This document shows positions 125-47,965 of a stretch of DNA of 64,000 nucleotides, in pieces. Location: positions 5,709,001-5,773,000 of the forward strand of contig OX419755.1 in the NCBI GenBank assembly GCA_948567375.1. The letters run 5' to 3'. The translations under genes and the position numbers were made by a program. This DNA is from Lunularia cruciata. Taxonomy: Eukaryota; Streptophyta; Marchantiopsida; Lunulariales; Lunulariaceae. Each line of letters begins with the position of its first letter. Position 1 is the stretch's first letter. The notes below the pieces were generated by a model. It was not told the origin of the DNA and did not search any database. It saw only the letters and a list, made by a program, of their open reading frames with translations.

Positions 125-1155
125 ACACCTCTGGATACCTCACTCATTGCTTGGCAGTATCCAGTAGAGGGGATATGCCTATTGGAGTTGTTTGGTGGGA
201 TCAGCACCAGACTAGCTATGGTATTACATGCGGGTATACGAGTACAGAGGTACTTGTATGTAGGGAGAGATGAGACTGCTAGGTGAGTCTCTCTACATCA
301 TGTGGCACACTTGGCCTATCAATATCCGGAGTTATTACCAATGTTAGTAGTCAGAGGTTACTAGAAGGCCCTACCATCAGACATTTCCTTATTGGGGGCG
401 CATGACCTAAAGAAACATGGGCCTATTCACTTGGTGATTTTTGGATGGCCATGTCAGGGACATACACGTGCAGGCTGCGGTTTGGGTCTTTAGGATCCTT
501 GTTTTGGTATGTTTTGTGAGATGTTACGGATACTACAACATCTCCAAGTTCATCAGTCTGTTTCTCCAACTTACCTTTTGGAGAACATTCCTTTGATGGG
601 TGATTCTCACACTAGAGTTGTGGCGAGTACACATTAGGTTCATTCTTGGATGGGACCTGCTATATTGTTAGATGCAGCCACAGTGGGATCACGGGCTCAT
701 CATCTTTGTCTTTGGTGGACGAACTTCTTACCTAGAGAGGTTTTACAACGTGCTTATGATGGGGTTCAATGACTTGAGCACATCCTTGTTGATGACATCT
801 TGGATATTGGGCGTTAGTCTCAGACAGTGGTAGTGGCTGATAGGTCACCTATGGCAATGGTTAACCTAGTTGGACAGCCTAGAGCCGCATTTCCCACACT
901 CATGAGTTTCCTAGGCTCTCATGCATTTCAAGAAGGAGGACCTGGACTTGTTTGGGATTCACACTTACAGCAGTTGGTGGAGTCAACGCTGATGAAAGAG
1001 AGCAGGTGATGGGTTTTCACATCAGTATTATCGTTATTCCAACAATGTCAGAGGCATCCAGACGTCAGGTGTTAGGTCAAGCTATGGACCTAAATTGTTT
1101 GACCTGGATTGTGAGCCTTGGCTTGGCAGAGCAGTGTAGGATGCGCTTGATAGGC
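125..1155 (+). pseudogene. retrotransposon-borne cytosine-5 DNA methyltransferase (DNMT3-like), broken
   Basis: C5 methyltransferases move a methyl group from S-adenosylmethionine to cytosine through a catalytic Cys. Visible motifs in frame 2: motif I LELFGGIST (182-208, SAM loop); motif IV GWPCQGHT with the catalytic Cys codon at 452-454; motif VI LENIP (578-592, the Glu that contacts the cytosine); motif VIII region GSRAHH (686-703). After a frameshift near 985 the C-terminal block continues in frame 1 with DEREQVMGF and ASRRQVLGQAMDLN, matching the order of DNMT3 C-termini (Glu-Arg, Gly-Phe, then Arg-Gln-x-Leu-Gly). Motif order is unpermuted, unlike plant DRM enzymes. Six in-frame stops: TGA at 284 and 770, TAG at 362, 491, 635 and 815. 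No target-recognition domain can be delimited. The C5-methyltransferase call is strong; assignment to the DNMT3 branch is an inference from motif spacing. Confidence 0.85.
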
Positions 1156-1500: not shown

Positions 1501-2946
1501 ACTTAGGAGCCAGATCTTGGACCCAAGCTTATTGGAGAAGAAAGACGGAGGGTTTGGAGTTTCTTGAGGAGCCACATGAGTTGTTTTGCCTTCAATATGA
1601 AGGATTTGGGTGCTTTGAAGGGACCTGGTATATGGATTGAGCTGACTAGCAATACACCAGTTTTTCGACGTCTTTATCGCTATAGTGATATGGAGAGGAC
1701 ATTGATTTAGAGCCGGAGTAGTGACCTTTTTGAAGCTAGTTTGGTGGAGATTTCACATAGAGAGTATGCATTAGCAACAGTGATGCTAGCCAAGAAGGAT
1801 ATGCATGGCACCTATACAGATAGGCGGATGTGTGGAGATTACCGTCCTATCAACCGACAGACCAGGGCTGATTGGTATGCCATGCCTACCTCGGAGGAGA
1901 TTTTTGATGCGATTGGGCATGCAAAGGTCTTCAATACTTTGGATCTTTGAGCAGGATATCATCAGTTGCCGATCAAGGAGGAAGATAAGTCCAAGATAGC
2001 ATTCTGGGCTATTGATCCTCATGGCAAGGATGTGTTATATCAATGGAGGTTCTTACCGTTTGGGTTAAAGAACACTCATGCTAAGTTCCAGAGTATCATG
2101 GATAGGATCCTAGCTGGATTGGATTTTGCTCGGTGTTATATTGATGACATTTTGGTCTATAACACTATTGTGGAGGAGCATGAGAGACAATTGTTGGAGG
2201 TGTTTGAGAGGTTGAGATCTCATGGACTCAAATTACATCCTGGGAAGTGTAGGTTCTTCTACGAGCAAGTTGAGTATTTGGGTCACACTATCTACCCCAG
2301 AGGACTTGGTGTTCAGTAGACCAAGGTGGAAGCTATTGCACGTATTCCTTGGCCTACAGATGTGAGTAGAGTGCAAGCATTCCTTGGGTTGGTGAACTTC
2401 TATTGCCGCTATGTTAGAGGATTTAGTGCCATTGCCAAGGCCTTGACGAAGCTGACCAAGCTTACACATGAGTAGTGTTGGAGAGATGAGCATGAGAGAG
2501 CTTTTGTAGAGCTCAAGGAGAGGTTGACATCTGCTCCTATTTTGAGGAGACCAATCAGAGAACAACCAAATCAGGTTCATATTGATTGGAGTATGTTGGG
2601 GCTTGGAGCGGTGCTCACCCAGCATGATGATGAGGGGATGGAGTTTGTGGTGGCCTATGCTAGTCGCTCCAACAATTCAGTGGAGGCAAAGTATAGTTCA
2701 TATGAGGGAGAGTGCTTGGCAATAGTGTGGGCAGTAGCACATTTCCAATGTTACCTATTTGGTAACCCCTTCACTCTCATCACTAATCATCAACCACTGA
2801 AGTGGTTGATGGAGTCCAACAAGCTTTTAGGGAATCTTGCACGATGGGCTTTGATTTTACAGGAGTTTGATTTCACGGTTGTTCATAGACCTAGAGTGGT
2901 GAACCGTGATGCAGATGGGTTGAGTAGAAACCCATGTCCCAGCTAG
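1501..2946 (+). pseudogene. Gypsy reverse transcriptase and RNase H, broken
   Basis: Ty3/Gypsy pol segment that copies element RNA into DNA and degrades the RNA strand. RT landmarks: MCGDYRPINRQT (about 1828), LDL then a TGA where the family usually has a basic residue, then AGYHQLPI (about 1938-1974), WRFLPFGLKN (about 2045), the catalytic YIDDILVY (about 2137-2160) and YLGHTI (about 2275). RNase H landmarks: HIDWS (about 2578), YSSYEGECLAIVWA (about 2695), ITNHQPLKWL (about 2790, where the usual second Asp appears as Asn) and NRDADGLSRNP (about 2905). The frame is interrupted by TAG near 1708, TGA near 1948, TAG near 2318 and TAG near 2475, and ends at a TAG after 2943. The stops and the Asp-to-Asn change make it inactive. 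Confidence 0.92.
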
Positions 2947-3096: not shown

Positions 3097-4574
3097 TAGA
3101 GTGAAGATATTGGTATAATTCAGCGAGATATTCATGATGATGTCTTAGTGATGGACTATCTTTGCACTGGTGTTGTGGGTGGCACAATTGGGGCCAAGGA
3201 GAGAGACCGTGTTCTTCAACAAGCCAGACAGATCAGATTGGAGGGTAGACACCTTTTGCATGTATGGGAGGATGGTAGAGTGCGAGTAGTACCACTTCCA
3301 TCTTAGAGACCACAGTTGGTCCGTCATGCTCATGAGGAGCTATGACATTTTGGAGTAAAGTGTACGTATAGCTTACTCCAGAGTCATTATTGGTGGCGCG
3401 GTATGCAGACCAAGATATAGAAGTTTGTTGCCAGATGTGTGGTTTGTTACCGAGTTAGAGCATCATTCAATGCTCCTACACCATAGTTACACCCATTACC
3501 TATCATGGGATTGGATTACCGTTGGAGTTTGGACTTTGCTGGACCTTTACCGTTGACTGTGAGACATCATCGGTATGTTTTGGTGATGGTGGAGCACTTT
3601 TCCAAGTGGATTGAGTTGGTGGCACTTCTTGACAAGTCTAATGAAGGGACAGCTTACTTGTTCTTGGATCGAGTTCTTAGTCATTTCGGTGCACCAGCTG
3701 AGGTTTTGACTGATCAAGGTACAGCATTCTTGGGGGAGTTTCAGGTCTTGTGTGACAAGGCTTTGATTGATCACTGTACTTCTTCTCAAGATCACCCTAA
3801 GGTAGATGGCTTAGCAGAGAGAGTGGTTCAGACAAGACAATGAAGAGAGGGTTGTGAAAAAATGGTTTGCAGAGAGGCCACTTGGGAGATTGGGATCTCC
3901 AATTACCTTGGTTGGCCATGGGCTATCAGTTCAGCCGGCAAGCCTCCTTAGCATCCTTCTCTCCTTACTTCCTACTCTATGGACGAGATCCAGATTTACC
4001 TATAGCCATTTGTCGAGATGCTACTGTAGTTTTGGACTTGGATGACCCAAATGTATGGATGAGCTCATGTTCTTAGCGGGCAGAGATCTTTCAGAGAGTG
4101 ATGCCAATGGCCTTTGAGAACTTGAAGATTGTTTAGCATAGAGATACTTTACGCTATGCTACCATTTGAGGAGGAGGTTATAGACCCTTGATCCGTCAAT
4201 TTCATCCAGGAGACTATGTATATCTACAGCAGATAGCACCAATGACACTTGATGTTTTGACAGACCGCACTATCTTGAGAGTGCGTGAGGTTTTGCCATC
4301 TGGAGTCCTTGTGTTGGAAGAACATGATGGTGTTGTTTGGAGAGATCATGTGCGCAATTGTGCGCCATGCCACCTCCTAAACATTGATGGTACTATGGAC
4401 CCAAGCTTGGCACTTGTACGTGCAGGCTTGAAGTGTATATTATGTGGCTCTTCTGGTGGAGTTGCTACTATGTTAGTGTGTGATAGCTGTTCGAGAGGAT
4501 GGCATATGGCATGTATGAATCCTCCTCTCACGGTGGTTCCTCAAGGACAATGGTTATGTCCTAGATGTACTTGA
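3097..4574 (+). pseudogene. Gypsy integrase with GPY/F-like module and C-terminal PHD finger, broken
   Basis: Integrase inserts the DNA copy into the genome. Visible parts: a zinc-binding HHCC region (about 3325-3455, ending CVVC), then the catalytic core with the first Asp in WSLDFAGPLP (codon 3532), the second in LTDQGTAF (about 3705) and the Glu in VDGLAERV (about 3805-3827). A frameshift near 3842 is followed by LPWLAMGYQFSRQAS and SPYFLLYGRDPDLP in another frame. From about 4188 a GPY/F-like module (GDYVYLQQ, then LRVREVLPSGVLVLE and HVRNCAPCHLLN) precedes the PHD finger. Stops at about 3097, 3304, 3340, 3418, 3484, 3841, 4076, 4134 and 4168 are all TAG or TGA. A PHD finger replaces the chromodomain found in many plant Gypsy integrases. 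Confidence 0.9.
4434..4574 (+). other. PHD zinc finger at the C-terminus of the Gypsy integrase
   Basis: The C-terminal 47 residues have the C4HC3 pattern of a PHD finger: CILC, then CDSC, H after four more residues in SRGWH, MAC, and finally QWLCPRC with the conserved Trp two residues before the last Cys pair. All eight zinc ligands are present and the stop follows directly. PHD fingers usually read the histone H3 tail, often H3K4 methylation state. In an integrase tail the likely role would be choice of insertion site, as chromodomains do in chromoviruses; that role is inference. This stretch is intact although much of the element is broken. Confidence 0.85.
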
Positions 4575-4743
4575 CCTATAGCTAGTTCATTCTTTATATG
4601 GTATAGATTGTAGATAGGCGACTAACGATGGGGCTCCATAGCACCCGGCCTCTTGATCTTTGCCTATCATAGGGTATACCATATACTTAGAGTAGATGGC
4701 TATCTGGAGTTAGAGGGACCTAACCGCCACCTAGGGGGGCGAT

Positions 4744-5277
4744 TGTGGCACTTTAGAGTCTATGTATGACTTATGTGTGAGTTGTGCTTCTATTGTGTAT
4801 GATGTTGATAACAATGTATGTTGTGTAGCAATGTATATATGCATGACAGTTGTCACGCCGTTTGTAGTGTCCCATCTAGATGCTCGGACACTGGAGTTCC
4901 TGTGATAGTAGTTAGAGGCATTTTGGCAGTTACTCATAGACTACTTTCCGACGGTCAGATTTCAGGTTTAGGGTACTGACTTCATGGCGAGGCCCACCGT
5001 CACTTGCACCGTCCGCACCGTCATGTGTGCCTTCAGTGGGACCGTTGGGAGGAGACCTAGGTCAAAATCAGGGGTATACCTTGGGATTGCAACTCCAGAG
5101 AGCTTACTTCTTTGATGTTGAGCCTTCGAGTTCCTGGCTAGAGTGGACAAAAAGCCGGCGAGCGTCACCTGGAGTCTCTTAGCTAGAGTGGATGTGGCTT
5201 GACTGTAATCAGTGCCCTGTTGTTGGCAAGTTGTTGAGGATCAGATCAAATATTGATCTGAGTCCAATTGATTCGAG
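4744..5277 (+). repeat. Gypsy LTR, copy 1 (534 bp)
   Basis: It starts TGTGGCACTTTAG directly after a purine-rich tract (AGGGGGGCGAT) and ends before TGGTAAACG. The same 534-bp unit recurs at 5297-5830 with about a dozen differences by eye. The 3' boundary is set by the start of the primer-site-like linker and lacks a clear CA end, so it may be off by a few bases. Confidence 0.75.
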
Positions 5278-5296
5278 TGGTAAACGATCTGATTAT
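5278..5296 (+). other. primer-binding-site-like linker between two LTRs
   Basis: Nineteen bases beginning TGGTAAACGATC separate two LTR copies. A TGG start right after an LTR is the usual form of a retrotransposon primer-binding site (complement of a tRNA CCA end). The matching tRNA was not identified. Confidence 0.45.
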
Positions 5297-5830
5297 TGTG
5301 GCACTTTAGAGTCTATGTATGACTTATGAGTGAGTTGTGCTTCTATTGTGTATGATGTTGATAACAAGGTATGTTGTGTAGCAATGTATATATGCATGAC
5401 AGTTGTCACGCCGTTTGTAGTGTCCTATCTAGATGTTCAAACACTGGAGTTCCAGTGATAGTAGTTAGAGGCATTTTGGCAGTTACTCATAGACTACTTT
5501 CCGACGATCAGATTTCAGGTTTAGGGTACTGACTTCATGGCGAGGCCCACCGTCACTTGCACCGTCCGCACCGTCAGGTGTGCCTTCAGTGGGACCATTG
5601 GGAGGAGACCTAGGTCAAAATCAGGGGTATACCTTGGGATTGCAACTCCAGAGAGCTTACTTCTTTGATGTTGAGCCTTCGAGTTCCTGGCTAGAGTGGA
5701 CTAAAAGCCGGCGAGCGTCACCTGGAGTCTCTTAGCTAGAGTGGATGTGGCTTGACTGTAATCAGTGCACTGTTGTTGGCAAGTTGTTGAGGATCAGATC
5801 AAATATTGATCTGAGTCCAATTGATTCGAG
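5297..5830 (+). repeat. Gypsy LTR, copy 2 (534 bp)
   Basis: Near-identical second copy of the LTR at 4744, same orientation, following the 19-base linker. LTR-linker-LTR without an internal region indicates recombination or a concatemer junction, not an ordinary solo LTR. Confidence 0.75.
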
Positions 5831-5922
5831 AGTCTATGTATGACTTATGAGTGAGTTGTGCTTCTATTGTGTATGATGTTGACAGCGATGTATGTTGTGT
5901 AACGATGTATATACGCACGACA
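5831..5922 (+). repeat. Gypsy LTR, truncated third copy
   Basis: Resumes the LTR about 13 bases after its start (AGTCTATGTATGACTTATG) directly after copy 2 and runs for about 90 bases before similarity is lost near 5922. Confidence 0.65.
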
Positions 5923-12692: not shown

Positions 12693-15600
12693 TCAAGTAG
12701 GTACTAATCCTGGTAATTCCGGACGGGATAAGAACAGTTTTGACATCGCCATGGCAAATGGAAGTGCCAAGACAACTAGCAAAGACCCACCGAGGAAGAC
12801 CTCCGCGTAGGAGCGTACACTTCTCCAGCTTTTACTGACTAAGTCGCCAACCCTGCCGCTTATCACTCCGCTAAGTTTCTCGCTGAAATGGTCAGGTGGA
12901 GACATCATATCCTGTCCATCTTTGCAGATAGCCTCTCCTTCAGAATGTTGTTTGGTATCACAATCTTTTCCGCCGTGCGAACAATCGTAGGCACTATCTT
13001 CAACGAGCAAACTCCTCAAACCTCCTCGAGACTGAGAAAATGAGCTAGAGATAACCTCTTGCTGGGTTCTCTTGATGATTTCCACATCCTCGTCAGGTTT
13101 GATCACTCTTCCGTCCTTAACGGATGAAGACTTGCTGACACTGGCCATCTCAGATGCTAAACCAAGGACTGAGTCTGTCATCCGTTCACAAACATCTGCG
13201 TTCATAGTATCTTCCTCAGGGGGTGCTAAGGAATTATCGTGATTCAGTTCAGCAGTCATCTTCTTGCACACCTTCCGTCCACTGTCCTCCTCGTCACTAT
13301 CCGTTTTGAAAGAGTCATCCGAGGCAATTGGGTTGTCTCGCACACTCCAGCCAGCTTCACTGGAAGTTTCCAAATCCATATCAGCCATATCTATTACATC
13401 CCCAGTAGACTTGATGTCCTGGTCTCCCACGCTACCTGAATCCGGGCTGGATAAGGTAGACTGCAAGGACCGCACTAAGCGCCTGGGTGTGCTGTAAGGA
13501 AGGAAATCCTCTGCAGTGATAAGTGCTTTCGGCTTCTGCCAGGATCCAAAAACATTACCACGCGATCAGATAAAGTCACTCAAGCCATATGGAGACGGAG
13601 CATACACCTCCAGCCTAGAATGAGCAATGAGTATATAACAAATTGCGGACAAATGGTCACTCACAGTTTAAAACCAATAACTGACGAGAAAAGTCACACA
13701 ACTACGGAGAGAACTGTTGACAGCGAATTTTAAGCGCACTATCAACCAGGAACAAATGAAAATAAGATCCACATTCATACCTGAGGGCTGTAGGGATCCT
13801 CCATAGTTCTCAGATGAGCCATGGAATTGTAGTGGGCTCGCGAATTGCACAAAGCATCGAGAGCCTCCTTACAATCGCTCCTCGGGAAATCGTCTGGAGG
13901 ACGGATATCGTCCTCGTCGACAGCGGGCCTCACAGGTTGATCTGGGTTTCTCACTATACCGGCATTCACTGGTCCTTTTAGTTCAAAAACGTTTTTCATA
14001 GTTGGTCCAGACAAAACACTGCGGTTGCGAGAAGATCCAGATATCGAGAAGGAGCCTATGCTTTCCCTCTCAGTCCTGATCTGACTAAGGGTGCTCTGCT
14101 CGCTTTGAATGCTGACCCGACTAGAAACACTATGGATGCTCTCTCGGCTAGAACTCGTATCACTTTCTGCTTCAATATCGACTGCAGTCCCGCCATTCGA
14201 AAAGACTTCCTCGTCCTGAGTGAGAAGATCTCCTTCTTGCTCCCTGGAGCTGGTGAGAACAGATTCTTCGAGAGGATTGAAGGTCCTCCCACCTCTGCTT
14301 TTCGACATCACAACGGGACTGATGTCTGCCATGATCATTCCACGAAAGCAAGACTAGTCAGAACCGCATATTACTCTATTGAATATAGTAGACCAGCCAG
14401 CATTAACACCATGAATACAGTCAGATAGCTCCCTAGAGCAATACGCTAGTTTCTTAACCAGAGTTTCATGACGAACTTATACAACAGCCTCCTTATTAAT
14501 TCGCGTGCAGTCATGTTGCCTTCAGCAGATACGTTCCAGATTTCCAACAAGGTCTAAGGTAGACAGAAGCAACTGGCAATAGCTCCCTATATGTAAAATA
14601 GGAATAGTGTAGCAAAGCGTACCCTCAAAGCACAGTCAATTTTAAATCATAGAAATCTAGCATTCATGATTAGGTTCTTAAGGAAAGGGGAGTGAAGGAG
14701 AAGAGGGAAGGGGAGGGGAGGGTGGGATGGACATGGACATGGTAAAGAGGGGGATTTGAGGGACGGGATTGTTGTTGAAAATTATGAGAGTGAATGAATG
14801 GCAGTACTCTGCGATGCATATCCTATGGCAGTAGCTGCCAGATCAATCCTCGAAAGGCTTTGAGACGAGATCCAGTAGCAATTAGACTGACCTATATCTC
14901 TTGATTGCTGATCAGTTCCCAACTTGTCTGAAAGTGACGGAGGATAAGGAATGTAGGACCCCGGTGTGGGAGGTCTGGGCCGGACATACTTTCCAACACG
15001 GCCAGAACCAGGTGAACCACCAGAAGTTATCCCCAGATCCCATGGAACGGCTGCATTGACATCTGGATTGCGTGCCGGAACGTTCTCCTTAGCAGGCGCT
15101 TCACTTGACCGGTCAGGATGAAACAAATAACCATCAAAAGTATCACCCGAACTTACTGACGATGTTTGTGAAGAACACTTGTACTGAGGTCTGGTCGGAA
15201 AGAGAGGTGACCTACGAGATCTCCCAGGAGGAGGAGAGATGAAACTCGAGGTTGAAGATTCTGATGACATAGAAGGTGGAAATGACACAATCTGACTTTC
15301 TTGTGAAACTTGCGAAAAGCATAACGGAGAACAACTTGCACGCCTAGGCGCAGCAGAGGGCATGTACTCCCCCGAAACAGCGAACAAGCTCTTTCTGCGA
15401 GAGGCTTTCTTGAACTGCTTGTCATCCACTGATAAGAAGCTGAGAGATGGAATGCCCAAGGGATCCTCACCATCACCACTCCGTCTGGAGTTATCCTCCG
15501 ATAGCAGAAGTTTGGCCGTTTTGAGTGCTTCGCTCACGGCCGTTCTAACGTGGGGCATCCGGTCATGCTTGCAATTGTCCAGCGCCTGAATGGTGGGTCC

Positions 15601-16672
15601 TAACTCAGATGCAATTGTAGCTCTATCAACAATTGGAAGGACAACTTGAAGAAGACGCGCTGCACATGCTCTTTGCTGCCAGGTACCAGACGCGGGATTT
15701 TGATAAAGGATCTCCACTCCAGCTCTGATAAGCGCGACTCCGTAGCTGCTCATGAATGAGGGGTTCACCGTTGCCAAAGCACACGTAAGTTGCATGTGGG
15801 CGACAGTCCGTGTTCCCTTCTCCCCCATAGCAACTGCGGTCCGCAGACAAGCTTCGTTCACTACTTCGTCTGATGTGTGGCCCCACTTTCCACACTCAAC
15901 CAAAGCCTGCAAACACACGGCTGCACCCGCTGCAAGAGGCTCTAATTTCCCAGCAAGCACTTCCAAGAGAGGCTCACACACCTCGCGAAGAATTTCATCA
16001 GCGTGCAACAGGGAACTATCGTCAATCGAGTACCTAGCGACCGCAGAAACCACTTTAGCGCAGGCCTGGTGAAGTTGAGGTGAACTTCCGCTCGAGGACA
16101 GAGATCGTGTGACAGTGGCCATCACACGAGGTATGTGCGGAATGATGAGCTTCCCGTGAACCCGAGCAACTTCTTCATACAGGGAAATCGCGTACGTTTT
16201 TGATGCTCCTTGGTCTCGTATTTCAGAAACCTGAATGAGAAGAAATTTACACAAGAGTCAAGCAAAGGGCCACAAAGTATGACGGGAACAATATACCAGT
16301 ATTTGCCGATTAAACCTCAATGATTGGAACAACCCGGACCTGATACGCCGATCGGATCGATGTTAGGCAGCAGGAAGCAAGTATTGTCGGTGCATTATTA
16401 ATATCTAAATTAGTAACTTGTAAGTGTGTAACATGGAACCAGAACGAGAAATGACATAAAATGGCGCTGGCGCGATAATTGACCTGTGCAAGGAAACGAG
16501 GCATTGAGCCCGGGTCCAAATTCTCGACGAAGTGCTTCAATGAGTTCATCGCAGTCCGCCTGCTTTCAGTGTCCTTGTCCAGCCTGGCAAGATCCTGCTT
16601 TACGGCTGGGCTCATGTAACGCGGACTGTGACTGGTTTCGACATCCTTTTCTTTCATCCTAACAGTTCTCAC
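12693..16672 (-). CDS. SINE1/SINE2-type armadillo-repeat KASH protein of the nuclear envelope
   Basis: SINE proteins bind SUN-domain proteins of the inner nuclear membrane through a short C-terminal KASH tail and link the nucleus to actin. Proposed exons (minus): 16,672-16,484; 16,230-14,892; 14,325-13,781; 13,535-12,693; joined length 2,916 nt, about 971 residues, with GT/AG introns in phases 0, 1 and 0. The N-terminus SPAVKQDLARLDKDTESRR, the FLAQ|V junction and ISLYEEVARVHGKLI match Arabidopsis SINE1 as I recall it. Residues of about 20-320 form an armadillo-like helical region, then a long Ser-rich tail follows. The protein ends with a single transmembrane segment (GGSLLVVLALPFAMAMSKLF) and a terminal Leu-Val-Pro-Thr, the plant KASH signature. 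Three Met codons near the start are possible; Met at 16,672 is the first. The last 3' splice site is uncertain: an alternative at 13,607 keeps frame but meets TGA at 13,566-13,568. Confidence 0.85.
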
Positions 16673-21990: not shown

Positions 21991-22151
21991 GTATCAAAAG
22001 GGCCACCGCGTAGGAAAAACGAAGGATGGAAAGGCCTCATCAAGCCGTACAAGGGAGAGACAAAAAAGGCAACATGGGGCTAAGCTCCAACAGAGTATAT
22101 ATGAGAAATCTGCCCTACCGCACCTAAGATATTTGAGCTATGCAAGTCGTA

Positions 22152-22890
22152 CTATCTACACACAACTGGAGCATCCGAAGAAACATCACTTAGTGTGATT
22201 GCTCTCCTATGGATTGCACCAGCCATTGCCCTTTGTAGAGCAATGGGCACACGATGTCTAAAATATGCTACAAAGTATGAGAGTGAAAGTGGTACTCCTT
22301 GACGCCTAACATGATAAGCTCTTGCGCACTCCCTGACCAATGTGTCAAATGCCGTGTCCATCGCTCCATATAACTCCAAGGCTAGAGGAACAAAGAGGTG
22401 ACCTCGCTGCATGCTCCTATACTTGGAGACCTTGCGACCTGCTGCTGCACTCGCCGCCCATCCAAGGGGATGGGTAATCACTCCCTCCAAAAGTATATCC
22501 CGCGTAGGGTACGTAACCACAACATCTACTACTGTCACCTGATCATCTCGGACCAAATATAAGTCTGCCCTGACACGTGTCGTCTGTAAAGCATACTAAC
22601 GCTCCCTCCAAGCCAAGTATCCACTCTCTCGTGCCATAGCAAACACTATGTCCCTAATGGCATCATGGGTAGCTATCCTCTATCCTCCAAAAGGACACCG
22701 TATCATTTGGGCCGCTGCTGCATCTAGTGTAGAACCATACTCACAAGTGAGTAATGAAGATATAGATGGGTGGACCAAACCTAGGCGAAACCTCATCTCT
22801 GTAGAGAAAGTAGTTGGTGCGAGTCGGAATGCCCTAATGCACGATCGAGCTAGGATCCAAGAGCTTGCACCCTTGTTGGAGCAAGAGTGA
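22152..22890 (-). pseudogene. LINE CCHC motif and restriction-like endonuclease, broken (copy A)
   Basis: The frame after the RT has CEYGSTLDAAAA and RCPFGG (about 22,690-22,760), a CCHC-type motif whose first zinc ligands are clearer in copy B. The endonuclease follows: RADLYLV, VTVVDVVVTYP (Asp of the PD-(D/E)XK fold), RKVSKYRSM (the Lys) and FVPLALELYGAMDTAFD, ending at the TAG before 22,152. The Asp / Asp / Lys spacing and the hydrophobic strand before the second Asp are those of R2-type endonucleases. Parts upstream are frameshifted. Confidence 0.75.
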
Positions 22891-22989
22891 AGACGTGCTC
22901 TAGTAGCTTGAGGAATGGATGAGTCTACTAAGAGAGAATGTAGCGTATGCTCACATTGTCGCTCCATCAAGGAAGACTGTAAACCTCTA

Positions 22990-24420
22990 GTCCAATCTTA
23001 CGATAGTGAAGCAAAAGGTGGAAAATCCTCTCATGCTCGTGGGGATAGACTATCTCTTGTTTGCCGCAATAACACTTGGAGAGAAAAGGATCCTCCCTCC
23101 ACCTCTGTCACATAAGTCTCCAAAATTGGCCATCAACAACCACAAAACGAGAGGAAAGTAAGGGTGTCGAGAGAGCCAAACTACCCAAAAATGCTATAGG
23201 TTCCGTCTCCTCCATAGAAAGCAAGCCAACCCCACCACATGAGATCGGCAAAGACGTCTATCTACGTGCCAAATCCCCTATCACACACTCAAAAGTCCCT
23301 AGTCCAATAATATCACCAAAGACTCCCATAATCCTCCTATCAAATGCTCTCAAACATGATAAGAAGGACGGTGAAGAAGGAATCGTACGGATGAGGTAGG
23401 ATGGTCACCGAGAAATATTGGAAGAGAGTATACCAAATGCCACTTGCGGATCTCCTAGCAATGGAAGGTCATCCACATGGAGAACATCCTCTGCAGGGGC
23501 AACATCTAAGAAGCGTGCGACAAAATCCTCCGATCCTACTGGCACTCCAAGAACACAAATCCCCTCTGGAAGCTCAAGGTGGGAAGGGATATCTAAAGGG
23601 GACCATGAACTACACTTTGACACATTGACTCTCAAGCCTACTAGATGTAGCTCGGAAGTCAAGTAGTCCAAGGCCTGCCTAATCTAATCTATAGGGCCTA
23701 CGATATGTGTATCATCTGCCAAGGAGTGAAATACACAACATGGCATGGCCAAAGTAGTAGATAGAAGAGCTCTCAAGTGAGCCTTGGCAAATAAGCCCCC
23801 CCCCCCCCCCCCCCCCCCAAAAAGGATCTCCCTGACGTGTATCAACAACTAACTCCAAGACGGTGATTCCCTCTTGTGAACCACCATGCTGGTAGTAAAG
23901 TGAAGCAGGAGAGCCATAAAACGACCGCACAAAAGGAATGAGACTTGCCAAGGATCCACCAGCCTCCCTGAGCTCTCTAAAGATGGATGCACGTGAGACG
24001 CTATTAAAAGTGTTCTCAACATCCACCTGTAGGACGACCCACTCCGGATGGATATCTAGGAGTGCTCTAATGCCTAGAGATATAGCCTCACATCCTCCAA
24101 GTGTAGCTACTCCAAACTGATGTGGACTAAGGTGTTATCAAAAGTGAGAATGATGTTGAAGGACAATGGTACAATTGACCAAACGCAAAAAGATCTCTCC
24201 AATAGCAATCGGCCTAATGCCTCCCGTGTCCTTCTCCATCGCGAGAAGTCGACTAGCACCTAATACCCGACTAATAGACATAGGAATGTCTCCTCTTGCT
24301 ACTGATTTAGCCACCTAAAACAACTCGTTAAAACCACTAGAAGGATCATCTACCTTGAAGCAATCTCTAAGGTGCTCATAAACCATCCTTGACAGGCCTC
24401 TTGAGGAAAGGCAAGGGGTA
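22990..24420 (-). pseudogene. LINE reverse transcriptase, broken (copy A)
   Basis: RT motifs in order on the minus strand: SISRVLGASRLLAM and GIRPIAIGEIFLRLV (about 24,190-24,300), HQFGVATLGG (about 24,090-24,125), VDVENTFNSVSRASI (about 23,985-24,030, catalytic Asp), TRQGDP (about 23,825-23,840), then a poly-G run where coding should continue, and SLADDTHIVG (about 23,698-23,730, the YxDD-box equivalent). LELPEG and VLGVPVG (about 23,540-23,590) and LPISCGGVGLLSMEE (about 23,210-23,260) mark the thumb side. Several stops and frameshifts. Confidence 0.85.
23796..23818. repeat. 23-base C homopolymer inside the LINE RT
   Basis: Uninterrupted Cs (Gs on the coding strand) directly after the codons for TRQGDP. 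The length is prone to sequencing and assembly error. Confidence 0.9.
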
Positions 24421-27535: not shown

Positions 27536-30500
27536 CTATCTAAGGCTTCCATTGTGAGGGGCTTTCCGTAAAAGCTTGCAGAGCTCAATGCTCATATCCC
27601 CAAGAGAGATCGGCTTTAGTACAACACCATCCATTCCGATTTGTAGACAACGATCACGGGTATCCTTGTCAGTATTTGCTGTCAAAGCCACCACTAAAGG
27701 TCGATCCTCTGGCCGAAACCTCTGACGGATCCTCATGGCAACTTCATATCCGTCCATTTCTGGCATGCAAAGATCCAGTAGGAGAACCTCGAACGAACTG
27801 CCTGGCTGCGATAGCGTCGCCAGACACTGGTGACCTGATTCCACAACAGTTGTATGGCAACCTAGCCGATCTAATAACCTGCGCGTGACAATGCGGTTGA
27901 CACTGTTATCATCTGTGACCAGAACTTTCAAACCTTTCAAGTCCACTTTGTTCAGCTGTTCGTCGCGTGTTAGTCTCTCTCGCTTTCCAGTGCCTGACGT
28001 TGGCAACAATTGCAGCCGGAATATGAATGTTACGGTTGAGCCTTTACCCAGGCCCTCGCTTTCGATCCATATGTGGCCGTGCATCAGCTGCAAAAGTCGT
28101 AGAACATGATTTTTAGATTCCTTGGTTAGGCAAAGTGATTTCATCTTAAAACTGAAAGGGTAATCTATACGGAAGCTGAACTGAAAAGCAAGAGTGAAGT
28201 AGAGCCGATAAAAAATGACAGGCTACACGCACAACTAGCTGAAACAGACGGACGGATTAAAACCAAAAACGAGTTGATGAGCATTAAACCAATCCGAGAT
28301 CCACTTATATCTTTTCCCTTGCTCGTCATCATATATTTCATTCAACTATGAGATGGGCTTCACTTCACTGTGGAGCTTAACAAGAACAGGATGAACAGAG
28401 GCTTCGAGAGCAGGTGCCAGAGGAGAGAAACTCCCCTTCTTACTCTAACCCAGAGCACATGAAAGTCCATCGCGAGATCCGGGGTGACTCATTCCAGTTC
28501 GCTTTCATTTGTGTATATTGCTATGTCTTGAAGAGCTCGGCAGGATCAATGTAGAAAACACCAAGAGGGGCAAGATCATGTTTGCTGAGGATTTGGATAT
28601 ATTACCTGCACGAACTTCTTACAAATGGCGAGTCCCAACCCTGTTCCGCCATAGTTGCGTGTAGTAGTGCTATCTGCCTGTACAAACTTGTGAAACAGTC
28701 TCGGAATGTCACTCTCCCTGAGACCAAGTCCTGTATCCTGTACCTCAATCCGAATGTACACAAAGCCTTCAATTGGTTGAGGTCTCCAACTGGGGTGTAG
28801 CGGGTCCCACCTCCCATCACCTTTTTCCACCTTAACTAACACGGACACATATCCGGTTTTGGTGAACTTGACAGCATTACCTATCACGTTTAGAGATGTT
28901 TGCAAGAGTCTTTTCTCATCACCGATTACATGTCCGGGAACGTCGTCTGCAATCTCAAAGAAAAACTCCAAGCCTTTACCCCTTGCCATAGGTTTTGCCA
29001 AGTTTCCTGCTTCCCTCAGAACTGTGGGTAGATCAAATGGTGCAAGTTCAAGAATCAAGCTCCCATCTTCCAATCTTGAGAAATCCAGCACATCATTGAT
29101 CAGAGTGGAAAGAAGACTGCTGCTTTTGACAACCGTATCCACCATGGCCCGCTGCTCCATGCTTAAATTTCCTTCCTGAAGTAAGGATGATAGTGCAATA
29201 ATTGCATGCATTGGGGTGCGCATTTCGTGATTCATCACTGCTAGAAAATCGTTCCTGGCTCTGATTGCTGTCTCTGCTTCTAGTCTAGCTTGTTGCAAAG
29301 CTTTATTTTGCTCAACCAACTTATCCCTCGTACGCTGTGAATCCTCCAAAACTGCTGCGTGAGAGAGTGCAACTGCTACCTGTAATACAGACATCACGTG
29401 ATTAGGACCCAAGAAGACGAAAATACCAGTGGAACTTGGCTATAGAACATATCTCATGGTTCGCCATGACAAGGTCAAACTTGTCCTCCATTGCTAACTA
29501 TTAACATCCATGTCGGTTTCGGCATCCACCTACGGAGTCGCCTAAACTCGACCTCCATACTCAGGGTAGAAGGTTTTAAAAACAAACCGCAAGAACTAAC
29601 TTTGCACGTGATTATTTACCTGATCTGCCACCACCTCAACCATCTCAAGTTCATGGGGCCTCCATTGCTGTCCACTTTCGCTTGGCAACACGAGCACGAG
29701 AATGGCATACGACGCATGAAAAGTCTCTGGAGTTCCCCCCTTGAAGTTTGAAACATGGAGAAGAGGCAATCTAACAGCAGCCATTGCTCCTGATAAAAGG
29801 CGATGATTACTTTCCCTTCCCAAAGAACAGGTGGGAGGAATAATCACCGCTGCCCTAGTCTGCACAATGAGTCGGACCGAGGCATCTCCTGCAGGTATAG
29901 TGATCGGAACTTGTACCAATCTCCTCTCCAGTTCATGTGTCAACTCCAGTGCATTACCATCCACATTTGGCATCCACACAGTACAGTTCTCAAGGCTGAG
30001 AGTTTTAGCAAGCTCGATGAGAGTCGTGTTGAGAATAGTATGGCGATCCAATGTACTGCGAATCTCATGCGTTAACATCCTCACATGTCGTCCGACTTCC
30101 TCCTGTGTTTTAATTATGTCCATTTCCCTGTCTAACTCAGCAGCCTTATGCTTAAGAAAGAGTTCCCGCACCTTCACGTGCAGAAGTTCTGGTATAATGT
30201 GCACCAGCGTGATAGCCGTTGCGCAAGAAACCACTGCAGTGAGAATTTTTAGAACTGTCTGTGCCACAACAACAGTGTAGGAGTGGGGTCCATACGTCCA
30301 GATAGCTATGAAATGTGTCAACCCACAAAGCACTATAAATGCGCCGAACTGAATAATGACCCATCGGAATGGGAACATATGAGAGCAGCTCACAAAGTAG
30401 ACAAGCTCCAATGGTATTGAGAAATACGCAAGGGCAATGAGAAAATCGCTGGCAAGCTGGCAGCGAGTCATCCCTTCATCGGCAGATGCCCAAACTTCAT

Positions 30501-30615
30501 CCTCACATGTACAGCCAGGAATTATTCCTGGAGGCGAAGTGACCGTCCCTGCTACAACTGCTATGACTACCATAAGGGTCATCAGCACAGTCAATGATCT
30601 CCATAATTTCGTCAT
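27536..30615 (-). CDS. ethylene receptor, hybrid histidine kinase, subfamily II layout with intact kinase motifs (ETR2/EIN4-like)
   Basis: Perceives ethylene at the ER membrane and signals through CTR1-type kinases. Coding exons (minus): 30,615-29,620; 29,379-28,606; 28,087-27,536; all introns phase 0 with GT/AG; 773 residues. Residues 1-23 form an extra hydrophobic leader, the mark of subfamily II. The sensor keeps the Cys pair (35, 37), Asp57, Tyr64, Ile94, Cys97 and His101, which correspond to the copper and ethylene site of ETR1 (Cys65, His69). A GAF domain spans about 160-330. The kinase has the phospho-acceptor His383 ([10 protein letters not shown]), N box ([11 protein letters not shown]), G1 (DTGLGL), F (LFHKF) and G2 (GGTGLGL). 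The receiver has Asp649/650, phospho-acceptor Asp695 ([12 protein letters not shown]) and Lys748. A pyrimidine-rich AG ending at 30,681 suggests a 5' UTR intron. Angiosperm subfamily II members usually lack several kinase motifs; here all are present. Confidence 0.95.
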
Positions 30616-33600
30616 AGGGCTGAATGTTGTGAAATTTGCAGAGCCCTAAATCCCAGGATAGGCACAAGTGTGGGCGTCACCTGCAGAATGCAAAAGAATT
30701 ATAAGAACAAGCAAAACAAGGAGTCAAACTTCCCAAAGAGGGCTCGGTGATTGCATCGTAGGGGTACTAGAAGAGAAACATATAGCTCCACAAGCGCACT
30801 AAGTACATGGCATGGAACCTATGAAGCCGAACTCTTCTTCCTATCAGACTTGCCAATCTACTTACTGTATTGTAGAAATCGAACTGCCTGTGAAGATCAT
30901 GCCCATTTGTGATCTAGTCATTAAACTGCGCTTTAAATTCATGGCTCTCGAACCGCAGGTACATGCCACATTCTGGAAACCATTCCGAGAACCAGGTGCA
31001 CAAGCCGGGAACAGCAGTAGCATGTTCCTCTCGACTATCCACACTTGCAACCGAGAAACTTACATGGCTGTTCAACAATCTCCCATTTCATTTGAAGACC
31101 TCCACATAATTTAGGGCAAATCTGGTCTCCGAACGTCTCGAAAAGTACTCATTGTTGACTGGCTGATGCCGTAACCACCATTTCATCTTCCCTGTATCAA
31201 GTGGGAAGTACACCTATTCCATTCTGCAACCAATTTCTAAATTCTTCCAGTCCTGGCAATCAACCCTGCAAGCAAAGGCAATTATTCAGAGAGGATCTTA
31301 TTATAGCGATATGGCATACGAGCTTATCTAAATGTATGGTTAGTGCTTGTAAAAACTCCTGCATATTGTTATGTTTCTTCGAGAACATGGAGTTTAAGAT
31401 CTCACAATAACACCGTTGTTTGATGGCCCGCAAATGAAAGTCCAATGACCTCTCAGAGTGCTCAGGGTTTAGTATCACCTCGTAAAACCCGCAAAACCTT
31501 GAGAAGGCAAGAACTTGGCTGAGTAAAAATTCACCCTAGGACACGTGAAGATCTTTTACTAAGCTGTAAAGGTTGGCCAGAAAAGGGCAAAGATCTGGCG
31601 CGCAGAGCGTCAACCAAACGTTTAAAAGTTAAAGTTGGTTGAAGAAGGTCTGCGAAAAGGCAAAGCAATGGACGTCGTCCGCAGGGCAGAAAGAGTAGAA
31701 TCCTGGTATCCAGTGATAATAGCGGCGACTCTTATGCATTCGTTTTAGGCGGTCACGAAACATAAGAGGCGTCCGACATACATCAGTCTCAGAATAGTTA
31801 TTATCCCTGAAAGCCAATCCATAAGACCTTGAATGAAATTTCGATCTTCCAAAATACAAGTTGCGGAGAGCTCCAATAGCGAGACCACTTTCACCAACTG
31901 ATGGCCGAGAAGCATTGACGCCAGCTCATTCCTATACCATAGTCAAGCCACACACCGAAGTTCCACCTTCCCATCCACTCCAGTACAAAGTTTATGACTA
32001 GGTCTTGGCATAGCCAAATAGCCGATCAAACTGCTGGTAGGACAATAGGAAAAGACAGAATGATTGGAGGCAAAGGGCTGGATCAACGACCTGCTTGCTA
32101 TGCTTCAGTCATGTTATCGATTCGGTACGGCATGTGGAGCTCGGTAATAAGGTTGCATAGCCTCTCCCGATACAAGCCGGCAGTAGCTCAATATGCCAAT
32201 TGCTGGAGAATGAAATCGGATCCTATTTCACCTCGATTCTATGTCTCCTCACGCTGAACTCCAGTCTTTTCCCTGGAGCCAGCTCTGAATCTTTCCAAGT
32301 GTCCTAGAACACTTGCCAACATTTTCCTCCTTATGAGGATCCCATACCAGTGTCTACGCCTCGACAATGACCAGAAGCTACTAGTTCATCAACTCAGCAC
32401 CGACGAGCAACTCTACCACTCTCGCCACGCTTCCAACCAGGTAGGGACGACTTGGCTCCCCCGGCCTATGTCGATGACCATCGAAGTATACAGTCAGTAA
32501 CGCTAGAATTCGTGAACTCAGAACCGCCAAAAGTTCGTCGCGTCAGCAAATGCCAAGGAACTACAAGGAAAGAGACTCAATCGGCTAAGAGCTCTCACTC
32601 TCGGAAGACCATAAATACTGAACGGGAAGATAGGCGCTTTCCTTTCCTTCTCTTCCGCCACCGATAAATAAAAAAACCGATACTTGCTTCACCTCGTGTC
32701 CAAAAATCTGCTCCCCCACCCACCAACCAAATACACCACCAGCACTCTCGCCGAGTCTCGCCTCCTTCCTCTTCACCAAGCTTTGCTGCCACCACGGAGT
32801 CGTTCAAAAACTCATGCCTCGAATCCTGCGAAAATCACTCGTTCTGAAATTCCCCGAACCAGCTCCGTTCTCCCAGACTCCGTATCTCGATTCGAATCTC
32901 CTCTCTCAAGCCGGCCAGGAATTGCTAAAACCCTAGCAAGTACCACCGTCTTCCATCTCTATCTCACTTCCTTTCCAATCATTCACCTCTTCACTCTTCT
33001 TACAACACCTCCTCCGGGTTTCCCACTCCGCACCTCAATCACACGCAGTGTACCTCCCCTCCGACAGCTGCAGAATCCCTCCTCCTTCCCCTCCTCTCTC
33101 TCTCCTTTACCAAAACAAAACAGCAGAGACAGTAGCTGCAGGAGCAGCGGCATATGTATCTCCACCTCTTCCTGTATCCTATTCGTCTCTTGCTCCCCAC
33201 CCTTCGCTCAATGGCGGAATAACGAGGGACCGGAGGAAGGAAAAAGGAAGGAGCGTGACTAGAGAGAGAGAGGACAGCGGGAGGAGGTATCAGACACCGC
33301 GGCCAATTACGAACGCGAATCGCGAATAGTGGCAGGAGAAAATTCAGATTTTCTTTCTCTCATCCGGTGGGACGATTCGAGAACCTCTACGCCGACGTCG
33401 TTGTCCCCGTCGTCGTTTTTGGTAGCTGCACCGTCAATGTGCTCAGTCAGTCAGTTATTCAGTCAGTGAGTCATGTCGAAACAAAGGAGCGCAAAAGCGA
33501 AGCCGATTTGCCTTTCCCATCGCCAGATCTCCCTCTGCTCTGCTGCTTCTGCCACGGTGTATAGCCAGCCGATGCTGCGCAGACGTATTCCACGTCTGCA

Positions 33601-36739: not shown

Positions 36740-38480
36740 CACTATCATATTGGCGGATGATACACACATCGTAGGCCTTGTAAATCAGATTAGGCAGGCT
36801 TTTGACTACATGACTACCTAGCTACATCTAGTAGGCTTGAGAGTCAAGGTGTCAAAGTGTAGGGCATGGTCCCCTTTAGGTATCACTCCACACCTTGAGC
36901 TTCCAGAGGGGTGTATCACATCCGCAGATGGACCTCGTGTTCTTGGAGTGCCAGTAGGATTGGAGTATTTTGTCACACGCTTCTTAGACGTTGCCCTTGC
37001 AGAGGATGTTCTTCATGTGGATGACCTTATGTTATTAGGAGATCCGCAGGTGATATTTAGTATACTCTTCTCCAGTATTGTTCGTCGACCATCCTACCTC
37101 ATCCTCACAATTCCTCCCTCATCGTCCTCCCTTTCGAGTCTAAGAGCATTTGATAGGAGGATTATGGGAGTCTTTGGTGATATTATTGGACCAAGGACTT
37201 TTGAGTGTGTGACAAGGGATTTGGCACGTAGACAAATGGCTCTGCCAATCTCATGTGGTGGGCTTGGCTTGCTATCTATGGAGGAGACAACACCCATAGC
37301 ATTTTTGGGTAGTTGGGCTCTCTCGCCATCCCTACTTTCCTCTCATTTTGTAGTTGTTGATAGGCCGGTTTTGGAGACTTATGTGATAGTGGTGGAGGGA
37401 GGATCCTTTTCTCTCTAGGTGTTATTGCGGCATACGAGAGATAGTCTATCCCCACGAGCACGAGAGGATTTTCCACCTTTTGCTTCACTATCATCAAATT
37501 GGACTAGAGGTTTACAGTCTTCCTTGATGGAGCGACAGTGTGAGCATATGCTACATTCTCTCTTAGTCGACTCGTCCATTCCTTAGGCTACCAGAACAAG
37601 TCTTCACTCTTGCTCTGGCAAGGGTGTAGGCTCTTGGATCCTAGCTCGACCATGCATTAGGGCATTCTGACTCGCACCAACTACAACGATGAGGTTTCGC
37701 CTAGGTTTGGTCCACCCATTTGCATCTTCATTACTCACTTGTGAGTGTGGTTCTACACTAGATGCAGCAGCGGTCCACATGACACGATGTCCTTTTGGAG
37801 GACAGAGGATAACTACCCATGATGCCATTAGGGACATAGTGTTTGCTATGGCATGAGAGAGTGGATACTTGGCTTGGAGGGAGCGTTTGTATGCTTTGCA
37901 GGTGACAAGTGTCAGGGCAGATTTATATTTGGTCCGAGATGATCAAGTGACAATAGCGGATGTCGTGGTTAGGGATGCTACATGGGATACAGTTTCGGAG
38001 GGAGTGATTACCCATCCCCCTGGATGGGCGGCGAGTGCAGCAACAAGACGCAAGGTCTCCAAGGATAGGGGCATGCAGCAAGGTCACCTCTTTGTTCCTC
38101 TAGCCTTGGAGTTATATGGAGCGATGGACATGGCATTTGACACATTTGTCAAGAAGTGCGTGAGAGCTTATCATGTTAGGCGTAAGGGGTACCACTCCCA
38201 CTTTCATACTTTGTAACATATTTTAGACAGCGTGTGTCCATTGCTGTATAGAGTGCAGTGGTTGGTGTAATACAGAGGAGAGCAATCACATTAGGTGATG
38301 TTTCTACAGATGCTCCCGTTGCAAGGCTTGCATAACTCAAATATCTTAGGTGCGGTAGGGCAGATTTCTCCTATAAACTCTCTTGGGGCTTAGCCCCATA
38401 TTACCTTTTTTTTTGTTGCTCCCTTGTCCAGCTTGATGTAGGATGTAAGGCTTGTACATCCTTTGATTTTCCTCCGTGGT
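36740..38480 (+). mobile_element. LINE copy B, 5'-truncated, with RT C-terminus, CCHC and restriction-like endonuclease
   Basis: Begins abruptly inside the RT at ILADDTHIVG (about 36,748) and follows copy A closely on the opposite strand: LELPEG, VLGVPVG, LPISCGGLGLLSMEE, then LTCECGSTLDAAAVHMTRC (a readable C-x-C...H-x3-C motif, about 37,734-37,793), RADLYLVRDDQVTIADVVV and RKVSKDRGM (endonuclease, about 37,915-38,075) and FVPLALELYGAMDMAFD. The 3' tail has GGGGCTTAGCCCC at 38,385-38,397. Stops include TAG near 36,821 and 37,417. Loss of the 5' part is typical of LINE insertion. Compared with copy A, the Tyr of the KxxKY motif is Asp here. Confidence 0.8.
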
Positions 38481-46057: not shown

Positions 46058-47965
46058 TCACTCCTCGACTTGAGGAGCTGTTTGAGTGACAAGTTCGTCC
46101 TCTAACACTGCACACCCAAGAACTGCTCCACGAGATTCACCCATCGCCTTCACTCTCCTCCATGTTACGTCTCTCCCTCTCGTAGAGGGGTTGCACGCAA
46201 TTACTGTGTTTAGCCTCAATATGTCAAACTTCTTCCAGTGGCCATTTGCGGGCTGCCACCTTAGCACCTTCCCACCCAATACATACAACTCGTCCCGCAA
46301 CCCAATCAACCCGAAATTGAAGCCTTTTGGTCTTCGGTCTTGACCCGGAACTTCAACCCCAGGGACAGGGCCAATGTTGACCCATGCCCCCAATTGTGGA
46401 TCGTATAGTTTTATGGTGTTAGCATCCCAGTCATCCAATGCGTACATAGCACCTTGCATGGATGTCACAGGACATGGCATTTGCCGTGAGAACAACCATA
46501 CATCAGGAAGAGAGTACCAAGCAGATCTTGTTGGATCGTAAACTTCCACTGTTCGTTGATCCGCGTGATTCTCCACCACTCCTGCTATTACATAGAAAAG
46601 ACCTGCCAATGCCACTCCAACACAATCTTCTCTTGCGTTTGGAAGGGGGGCTATGTCTTCCCATCTGGACAGAAACATTTGGAGAATGATCAACAGCTAT
46701 TTTTAACTAGTTCATGGTGCTACATGATGTTCCCTTTACATTAACCTGTGTAAACAGTTAGGAGGAGCAGCATTCAACATCGCAGCATGGCTGACCAGCT
46801 CCAGAAGCAGAAAAGTTAGGTAGACACGACATTCACGTACCTGTCCTCTACGGGATCATAGACCTCAGCATGAGAAAGAGGGCTTCTTCGAGAGGAGCTA
46901 CATCCTCCGGCTACATAAACTTTGCCGCCAATGACAGCGCATGCGAAACTACACCGAGGGATCCTCATATCCGCAGCCCTACTCCAATTCTTCATAAATG
47001 GATCAAACTGGAACACCTCACTCATCGCAAAATACTTCACGGGCTGCATGGGAGGATCAAATGGAGTATAATATCCACCCATGACCAGTAATCGTTGGGC
47101 TACCCCTACACATGCAAAACCATAATGTCGATGATCTGTGGTTACCCCGGGCATTGGTGGAAGCATATGCCATTTACCAGCCTCTGGGTCATACGAAGTC
47201 CAGTTGCCTTCCTTTGGTTCCTCAGTAAGAACAAAGAGCCAGTCCCCACATTTGCCCTCTTGAGCCTGTGCACGTGCGTACTCGGAACTTTGAATGAGAA
47301 AATGCCATCTTTTGCACACTGCTTGTAACATGCCATGATGTCCATGTGAAATTTTGGCTAAACACAGGAGAGCTAGATCATCTGGAAGCCCCGGAAGAAG
47401 AGCATCCTCTGCTTCTCCATGATCTCCTTTTTCACTGCAAAGAACATAAATTCTTTCAGTGAAGCTTATCATTAAAAACGGTGATAGCCTGCCGTGGTTT
47501 TGATGCAAGATGCCCAGGTAAACAGCGGCTTAGGAAAACCAGAATTTTGCTGGGGATAGTCAAGAAGAAACTAAAGCATTGGTGGTGATGAGATTGTACA
47601 AACTGATAAAGATTTGGATTGACTCTGGCATCACAGGGCAGAGAAGTAACATCATATAGCTGCAGCTCAGGCGATATGGTAGTGACTTGCAGCGATCGTT
47701 CACTGACGCTTGTGAGAAAATTCAATGCTGCAAAGCCTTGAAAGTTGATCTTGCCTTCATACTGTATATTTAAAGGGTGGTCGTCTTTCTGAGCTAAGAG
47801 GCAAGAGGAGTCATGACTGGAACTCTCATAATGAGAGCAAGAGGTTTCAAACACCCACCGCCGCCCAGAAGGGACGATCTTGAACTTAGGTTTACGATGT
47901 CTCCCAGAGTCCTCTATGCAAAGATCACCAGTGGAGAAAAATCTCAGCCACCGACTCAAGGTCAT
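46058..47965 (-). CDS. F-box/Kelch-repeat protein, At1g16250-like
   Basis: F-box/Kelch proteins are substrate adaptors of SCF ubiquitin ligases: the F-box binds SKP1 and the Kelch propeller binds the target. Exons (minus): 47,965-47,763 (proposed first exon); 47,434-46,841; 46,664-46,058; introns phase 2 with GT/AG; 467 residues. The F-box starts LLPGLPDDLALLCLAKISHG and ends near CKRWHFLIQ. Kelch units include WLFVLTEEPKEGNWTSYDPE, MGGYYTPF, AGGCSS then AEVYDPVEDR|WEDIAPLP across the second junction, and LYVLGGKVLRW near the end. Order and wording match Arabidopsis At1g16250 as recalled. Exon 1 (MTLSRWLRFFSTGDLCIED...) is inferred only from frame and phase; an in-frame Met at 48,028 is an alternative start, or translation may begin elsewhere upstream. 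Confidence 0.85.

Follow-up and report, generated by a model that had tools for sequence, protein, structure and literature searches.

The window, by which we mean the whole 64,000-nucleotide stretch of Lunularia cruciata DNA analyzed here, almost certainly begins within a dead copy of a Ty3/Gypsy retrotransposon that is present in many copies. The first open reading frame (ORF1) of this element encodes gag, a protease (PR) and a DNMT3-type cytosine methyltransferase (DNMT), and the second (ORF2) encodes reverse transcriptase (RT), RNase H (RH), integrase (INT) and a PHD finger. The left edge of the window truncates the element, so that the first 4.6 kb of the window are its decayed downstream part, and PR was read upstream of that edge. 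A sequence-only reading of the window had proposed that a Ty3/Gypsy element carries a DNMT3-like enzyme upstream of RT, and a whole family of copies now bears this out. Elements of this kind are already known, and their liverwort and peat-moss hosts are new relative to the published algal descriptions as far as the available text of these goes.

The copy in the window

The features of the copy are collected in Table 1. The DNMT is read in frame 2 from position 164 and in frame 1 after a frameshift near 980. Motifs that we take to be I (LELFGG, 182-199), IV and VI (LEN, 578-586) lie in frame 2, a presumed motif VIII block is also present, and the C-terminal block NADEREQVMGF...LGQAMDLN...SLGLA follows in frame 1 to about 1128. 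These are the C5-methyltransferase motifs and the DNMT3-like C-terminal block that had been picked out from the sequence, and all of them were recovered. Among solved structures, the nearest to this piece is DNMT3A (E 2.6e-5). Downstream on the same strand, RT, RNase H, integrase and the PHD finger pass their Pfam cut-offs, in agreement with the earlier placing of the DNMT ahead of a Gypsy RT. The outer limits given for the integrase region are approximate, and its zinc-binding part was placed solely by comparison with another copy (L024). The PHD finger and the terminal repeats are additions to the features listed before.

Table 1. Parts of the retrotransposon copy at the left end of the window.
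Feature	Position	Strand	Basis and remarks
C5-methyltransferase domain, DNMT3-like and decayed, at the end of ORF1	about 164-1128	+	limits from comparison with the L009 copy
Motif IV Pro-Cys-Gln, in GWPCQG	449-457 (catalytic Cys codon 452-454)	+	sequence, alignment
UAG stop between ORF1 and ORF2, then CAGCTA	1453-1461 (UAG 1453-1455)	+	sequence
Reverse transcriptase, stop-broken	1633-2445	+	RVT_1 in frame 1951-2316, E 1.1e-21; limits from comparison with L024 ORF2
RNase H	2446-2946	+	RT_RNaseH in frame 2476-2943, E 1.6e-33
Integrase region, DDE core, frameshift near 3843	3298-4035	+	rve in frame 3487-3840, E 6.7e-12
PHD finger (C4HC3), integrase C-terminus	4434-4571 (stop TGA 4572-4574)	+	PF00628, E 1.4e-11; PDB PHD matches
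Purine-rich tract, polypurine-tract-like, immediately ahead of the terminal repeat's first TG	4733-4742	+	similar in L010, L014, L015
Terminal repeat array A-B-A-B-A	4742-5922	+	A about 107 bp, TG...CA; B about 430-450 bp

The copy is a dead pseudogene. Its 273-aa DNMT match contains six stops as well as the frameshift, and scores 19.6 bits with Pfam DNA_methylase, below the cut-off of 22, compared with 28.9 bits in an open copy. Motif VIII reads HHLCLWW here and HRLRLWW in two open copies, and the window copy departs from the compared copies at 268 of 4465 sites where these are unanimous. Many of the changes are C-to-T, at 51/220 CG, 88/405 CHG and 58/1563 CHH cytosines. Silencing in plants usually involves methylation of CG and CHG, and the bias towards these two contexts is the mark of long CG/CHG methylation expected of host silencing; being explained in this way, it does not bear on methylation of the element by its own enzyme. 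The ratio of observed to expected CpG is lowest in the window copy (0.33), somewhat higher in two other copies (0.43 and 0.45, over a 7-kb stretch) and highest in the remainder of the window (0.67).

A family with a conserved domain order

The 273-aa window DNMT was used to search the 565.8-Mb, 74-contig genome; there were 12088 first-look candidates, and the best ones were scored. This gave 141 scored matches as a lower bound: besides the window there were 140 more, with identities of 84-88%. The 28 loci examined comprise eight short ones and 20 of 9 kb, the latter picked mostly for long frames, and represent 26 distinct copies (L002 is the same as L028, and L003 as L025; L001 corresponds to the copy in the window). 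PR, DNMT and RT follow one another on one strand at 27 of the 28 loci, or in 25 of the 26 distinct copies including that of the window, with similar spacing throughout. The full order PR-DNMT-RT-RH-INT-PHD is found at 19 of the 20 9-kb loci. There are two exceptions to these orders: L004 is rearranged, and L018 has no PHD finger.

The window by itself holds a single decayed copy and could not exclude that a host DNMT pseudogene lies by chance beside an unrelated Gypsy element. The recurrence of the order in 25 of 26 distinct copies means that this is not a chance adjacency, and it disposes of the refutation envisaged beforehand as far as the joining of methyltransferase to RT in other copies goes. 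A single open ORF1 frame containing gag, PR and DNMT, and the same order in proteins of Marchantia and Klebsormidium, point the same way, and we regard a fortuitous neighborhood as refuted, with a probability that is negligible. A second alternative, a host pseudogene with introns, is excluded because gag, PR and DNMT lie together in unbroken ORF1 frames that reach 1448 aa.

In an open copy RT and RNase H stand ahead of a DDE integrase, which places the family in Ty3/Gypsy. The integrase there matches rve at E 1.1e-12, and this DDE-type enzyme, in place of a tyrosine recombinase, led us to reject a DIRS identity. A chromovirus identity was also rejected, as the C-terminus of the integrase carries a PHD finger and gave no chromodomain match.

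Two reading frames separated by an in-frame UAG

In copies with open frames, ORF1 runs uninterrupted through gag, PR and DNMT, and its translation includes what we take to be two CCHC knuckles in gag and a protease with DSGA. ORF1 closes with a UAG, beyond which ORF2 is read on without a change of frame. The junction is TAG CAGCCA in 20 of 20 other copies, and the UAG of the window copy is followed by CAGCTA. Both hexamers fit CARYYA, the readthrough context of tobamoviruses, and the window copy still fits it at about 92% identity to the other copies. The 20 copies were picked mostly for long frames and are close relatives, so their shared junction amounts to one conserved state, not 20 independent observations.

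Two Marchantia ORF1 proteins (P0002 and P0003) likewise end shortly past the DNMT. In Klebsormidium nitens, P0100 contains PR, DNMT and RT in a single predicted protein with no stop between them, which makes it unlikely that the UAG arrangement holds throughout, with the proviso that the gene model could hide a stop.

Which methyltransferase the element carries

A profile built from five element DNMTs was compared with solved structures, and its best match is DNMT3A (3.7e-23), followed by 4onj (3.2e-12), DRM2 (7.6e-11), M.HhaI (1.4e-8) and DNMT1 (only 0.42); 4onj, a plant 'DNA methyltransferase', is presumably a DRM. The motif order in an open copy is I, IV, VI, VIII, X. It is not permuted, which excludes a DRM and agrees with what had been claimed for the window copy. 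Among the 64 of 79 DNMT rows that are at least 240 aa long, 62 have the catalytic Cys and the remaining two a gap at that place, and motif VI has Glu in 64/64 and Asn in 62/64. The third residue of motif IV is Q in 54 of the 64 rows and N in two. PCN, as found in human DNMT3A, is a defining mark of the DNMT3 family. PCQ in place of PCN, together with an identity to DNMT3A of 28% over 262 columns, indicates a divergent DNMT3. Neither a PWWP nor an ADD domain was found in the element DNMT, and the AlphaFold model of P0004 has a mean pLDDT of 46.8, too low for use.

Bacterial origin was considered and rejected as first choice. The PCQ motif and the GQAMD end motif look bacterial-like, and with the low identity to DNMT3A they could suggest a methylase derived from a prokaryote or virus; the order of the profile E-values, with M.HhaI well behind DNMT3A, argues against this. 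So does a DNMT tree of 47 element rows (17 of the 64 being omitted), a single DNMT3 row from human DNMT3A with no plant DNMT3 row, and, for the outgroup, 11 phage methylases (from 12 loci on viral contigs, one of them shorter than 250 aa). In this sample, all element rows fall into a single clade (99/97) next to human DNMT3A, and the two together are split from the phage enzymes at 100/99. We therefore hold a prokaryotic or viral source to be improbable; nearest profile and tree position make the element enzyme a divergent member of DNMT3, with predicted activity.

Constraint on the domains

Pairwise pN/pS was calculated across 20 copies, picked mostly for open frames, and its values pool decay after insertion. 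It is 0.36 for DNMT, 0.37 for RT, 0.36 for RNase H and 0.37 for gag, and constraint is weaker in PR (0.51), INT (0.59) and PHD (0.68). The DNMT is under moderate purifying selection, its ratio being moderately below 1. For the K. nitens element a Ka/Ks below 0.2 has been reported, a stronger constraint than the 0.36 found here (PMC5890265). With few counts per domain, changes shared between copies were less constrained than singletons in PR (0.65 versus 0.49) and slightly more constrained in INT (0.57 versus 0.73).

Relatives and history of the element

Named organisms with proteins related to the DNMT or to Pol are Marchantia polymorpha, Sphagnum fallax, S. troendelagicum, S. tenellum, S. jensenii, Calypogeia fissa, Riccia sorocarpa, Closterium, Klebsormidium nitens and Tetrabaena socialis, and there are many unnamed metagenome proteins. 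From 8000 candidates scored for each search, all 52 of 52 and the best 120 of 153 DNMT matches were listed, and the best 120 of 2055 RT matches. Vascular plants and hornworts are not named among the DNMT matches listed; since the majority of rows lack an organism name, such hosts may nevertheless be among them. Four flowering-plant proteins among the RT matches listed (P0130, P0137, P0138 and P0165) have no PF00145. In Riccia, R1sor_014310 matches the DNMT and R1sor_014311 matches RT-integrase. The DNMT of P0001 is 73% identical to that of Marchantia P0002, with 61% for gag and 63% for PR, and the same domain order is repeated in Marchantia and Klebsormidium proteins.

The DNMT occupies two positions among these relatives. 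It lies before RT in bryophytes, Closterium and K. nitens, and between RNase H and integrase in Tetrabaena and many metagenome proteins. An RT-RNase H tree was made from 100 of 170 rows retained by domain length, with seeded random thinning of rows that have a PHD finger and no DNMT in frame. In the resulting unrooted tree of 73 rows the position of the DNMT changes once, splitting 16 rows from 27 (99/94, and 100% of 200 bootstrap trees), and the group with the RNase H/integrase position is also one clade in the DNMT tree (96/84). The simplest reading of these trees would be one capture of the DNMT and one relocation within pol; there may instead have been two captures of related DNMTs. A PHD finger is present in 84 of the 170 rows, many of which are fragments.

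A further DNMT tree used 44 of 45 hand-picked rows (named bryophytes, algae and 24 unnamed), and several of its deep branches are weak. The bryophyte rows, with the exception of Calypogeia P0279, which falls outside, form a clade of 24 with some metagenome rows (100/99). Within it, Sphagnum, Riccia and two metagenome rows group together (100/99), and this group joins Marchantia and two more metagenome rows (96/93). Calypogeia and the family in the window lie outside the Sphagnum-Riccia-Marchantia group, and the family is not adjacent to Marchantia. This grouping conflicts with the kinship of mosses and liverworts and suggests horizontal transfer between them; old, coexisting element lineages could give the same grouping. 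Taken together, the trees allow a tentative history, to which we give somewhat less than even odds: DNMT3-PHD Gypsy elements would form an ancient green-lineage clade with the methyltransferase as a core component of the particle at Gag level, captured once, relocated once and later moved horizontally between mosses and liverworts.

Comparison with described elements

The sequence-only reading mentioned retrotransposon-borne methyltransferases in some algal lineages, and such elements have been described from K. nitens and Symbiodinium (PMC5890265). The Gypsy-Dnmt3 element of K. nitens (KnitGypsy-Dnmt3) was described by de Mendoza et al. in 2018 as a Ty3/Gypsy element with a non-permuted, divergent Dnmt3 in its pol region, and retrotransposon DNMTs are stated to methylate CG de novo (PMC5890265); a survey from 2025 mentions DNMT3s of retrotransposons and refers to the 2018 description for them (PMC12344493). 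The Lunularia family, with a Gypsy RT-RH-INT and a DNMT3-type domain in one element, is of the KnitGypsy-Dnmt3 type. We take KFL_009030040 (P0100), which has the order PR-DNMT-RT-RH-INT, to be the published element. It lies on the same side as the window family of the split by DNMT position in the RT tree (99/94), and its placing inside the clade of 47 element DNMTs (99/97) is weak.

The two differ in several respects. The host here is a bryophyte, ORF1 ends at a UAG past the DNMT, and at least 141 places in the genome carry the DNMT. A PHD finger follows the integrase here, and the term 'PHD' is absent from the main text of PMC5890265; a PHD finger does occur in a second element protein of K. 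nitens, P0144. The 3' repeats here are A-B-A, and those of the K. nitens element are termed DIRS-like (PMC5890265). SymbioDIRS-Dnmt3 and SymbioLINE-Dnmt of Symbiodinium are likewise retrotransposons with a cytosine methyltransferase, in the former also a Dnmt3, but they are a DIRS element with a tyrosine recombinase and a LINE (PMC5890265), and have no Gypsy integrase.

Plant chromoviruses are Ty3/Gypsy elements with a chromodomain. They share with this family a histone-reader domain at the integrase C-terminus (PMC3350952) and differ in that here a PHD finger replaces the chromodomain and a DNMT is present. Host DNMT3A/3B and plant DRM enzymes have the DNMT3-type catalytic core in common with the element; relative to the former, the element has PCQ, not PCN, and no PWWP or ADD, and relative to the latter its motif order is unpermuted.

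The suggestion that such an element in a land plant may be undescribed thus stands in part. The kind has been published from Klebsormidium (PMC5890265), and the titles, abstract openings and passages covered among open-licence PMC papers gave no report of a retrotransposon-borne DNMT in bryophytes or other land-plant hosts, nor of the PHD finger, the UAG arrangement or the relocation of the DNMT inside pol. The accessible parts of PMC5784723, PMC10538959, PMC9033089, PMC13182070 and PMC9985172 do not mention such an element.

The hosts of DNMT-bearing Gypsy elements include liverworts and Sphagnum, and among them the genetic model Marchantia polymorpha, so that the question of why a retrotransposon carries an enzyme of a silencing pathway becomes directly testable. 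Some annotated host proteins resemble element ORFs or pieces of them: in Marchantia, P0002 (Mp_4g09160) and P0252 (Mp_7g09570), and in Sphagnum, P0176 and P0182, which are named DNA (cytosine-5-)-methyltransferase. Element-like gene models such as Mp_4g09160, P0176 and P0182 could mislead counts and phylogenies of DNMTs.

Possible roles of the methyltransferase and the PHD finger

The explanation that we favor overall, with a probability of about 0.6, is that the UAG limits Pol, that the DNMT is packaged and methylates the cDNA of the element, and that the PHD finger reads histones. Low-frequency readthrough of the UAG would yield Pol in small amounts. The UAG would set the ratio of Gag to Pol, placing the DNMT on the Gag side and making it a particle component, produced in large, structural amounts and packaged. 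The packaged enzyme could then methylate the double-stranded cDNA of the element before or at integration, and new copies, already methylated, might pass for host DNA or enter a tolerated chromatin state. Through the PHD finger, the integrase complex may read a histone tail and steer integration, in place of the chromodomain of chromoviruses. The functional part of this explanation (readthrough, packaging, the cDNA substrate and steering by the PHD finger) is more speculative than the whole, and we put it a little below an even chance. The earlier idea that the element might tune its own silencing is likewise speculative. Counted in favor are the conserved order, the TAG CAGCCA junction, the catalytic residues, and a constraint on the DNMT equal to that on RT and gag; counted against are the PCQ of motif IV, the weak constraint on INT and PHD, and the lack of a stop in P0100.

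Other uses of the enzyme can be proposed. DNMT3 enzymes act on chromatin, and a DNMT and a putative histone reader occur together in this one element family, so the DNMT might act on host chromatin or on rival elements, marking the neighborhood of an insertion or silencing competitors, and not on its own cDNA. However, the DNMT belongs to the ORF on the Gag side and the PHD finger to the one on the Pol side, and the two need not stay joined after processing; this option appears unlikely, if the most credible of the alternatives. Less likely again is that the element retains the DNMT for some role other than catalysis, such as nucleic-acid binding or assembly of the particle. Inactive relatives of enzymes can serve as scaffolds, as DNMT3L does, but the near-universal retention of the catalytic Cys and of the Glu and Asn of motif VI in the element rows speaks against this.

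Terminal repeats

At the 3' end, 15 of the 20 other copies have an A-B-A array about 168 bp past the PHD stop, and the sequence beyond it varies from copy to copy; in two others the first A is the last repeat, and three loci stop short. The window copy has A-B-A-B-A, its last A being without its first bases. The two copies that end at the first A (L017 and L018) have the appearance of having lost B-A when one A repeat recombined with the other. In L009, the sole 5' stretch read, B lies directly before the leader, with no second A. An A-B-A at the 3' end with B at the 5' end fits the DIRS-like split repeats of K. nitens, or else an LTR element whose 3' end is unusual.

Other features of the window

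Ethylene receptor exons (ETR1_N, GAF, HisKA, HATPase and receiver) on the minus strand at 27536-30645 mark the window as plant nuclear DNA. Plant genes in the window and nearest named relatives in liverworts and Sphagnum together give good support to the land-plant setting assigned to the element from the sequence. Also on the minus strand are a TORTIFOLIA1-like gene (PF24714) at 14782-16257, within 12693-16257, and an F-box-kelch gene at 46058-47529 in two open stretches; the frame at 12693-13565, next to the TORTIFOLIA1-like gene, matched no Pfam family. A 1.7-kb repeat occurs as an inverted pair with 86% identity (21998-23722 and 36750-38487), and frames near it are LINE-like in appearance, yet matched no Pfam family. 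Diverged direct and inverted repeats with 80-90% identity are clustered at 51887-58430.
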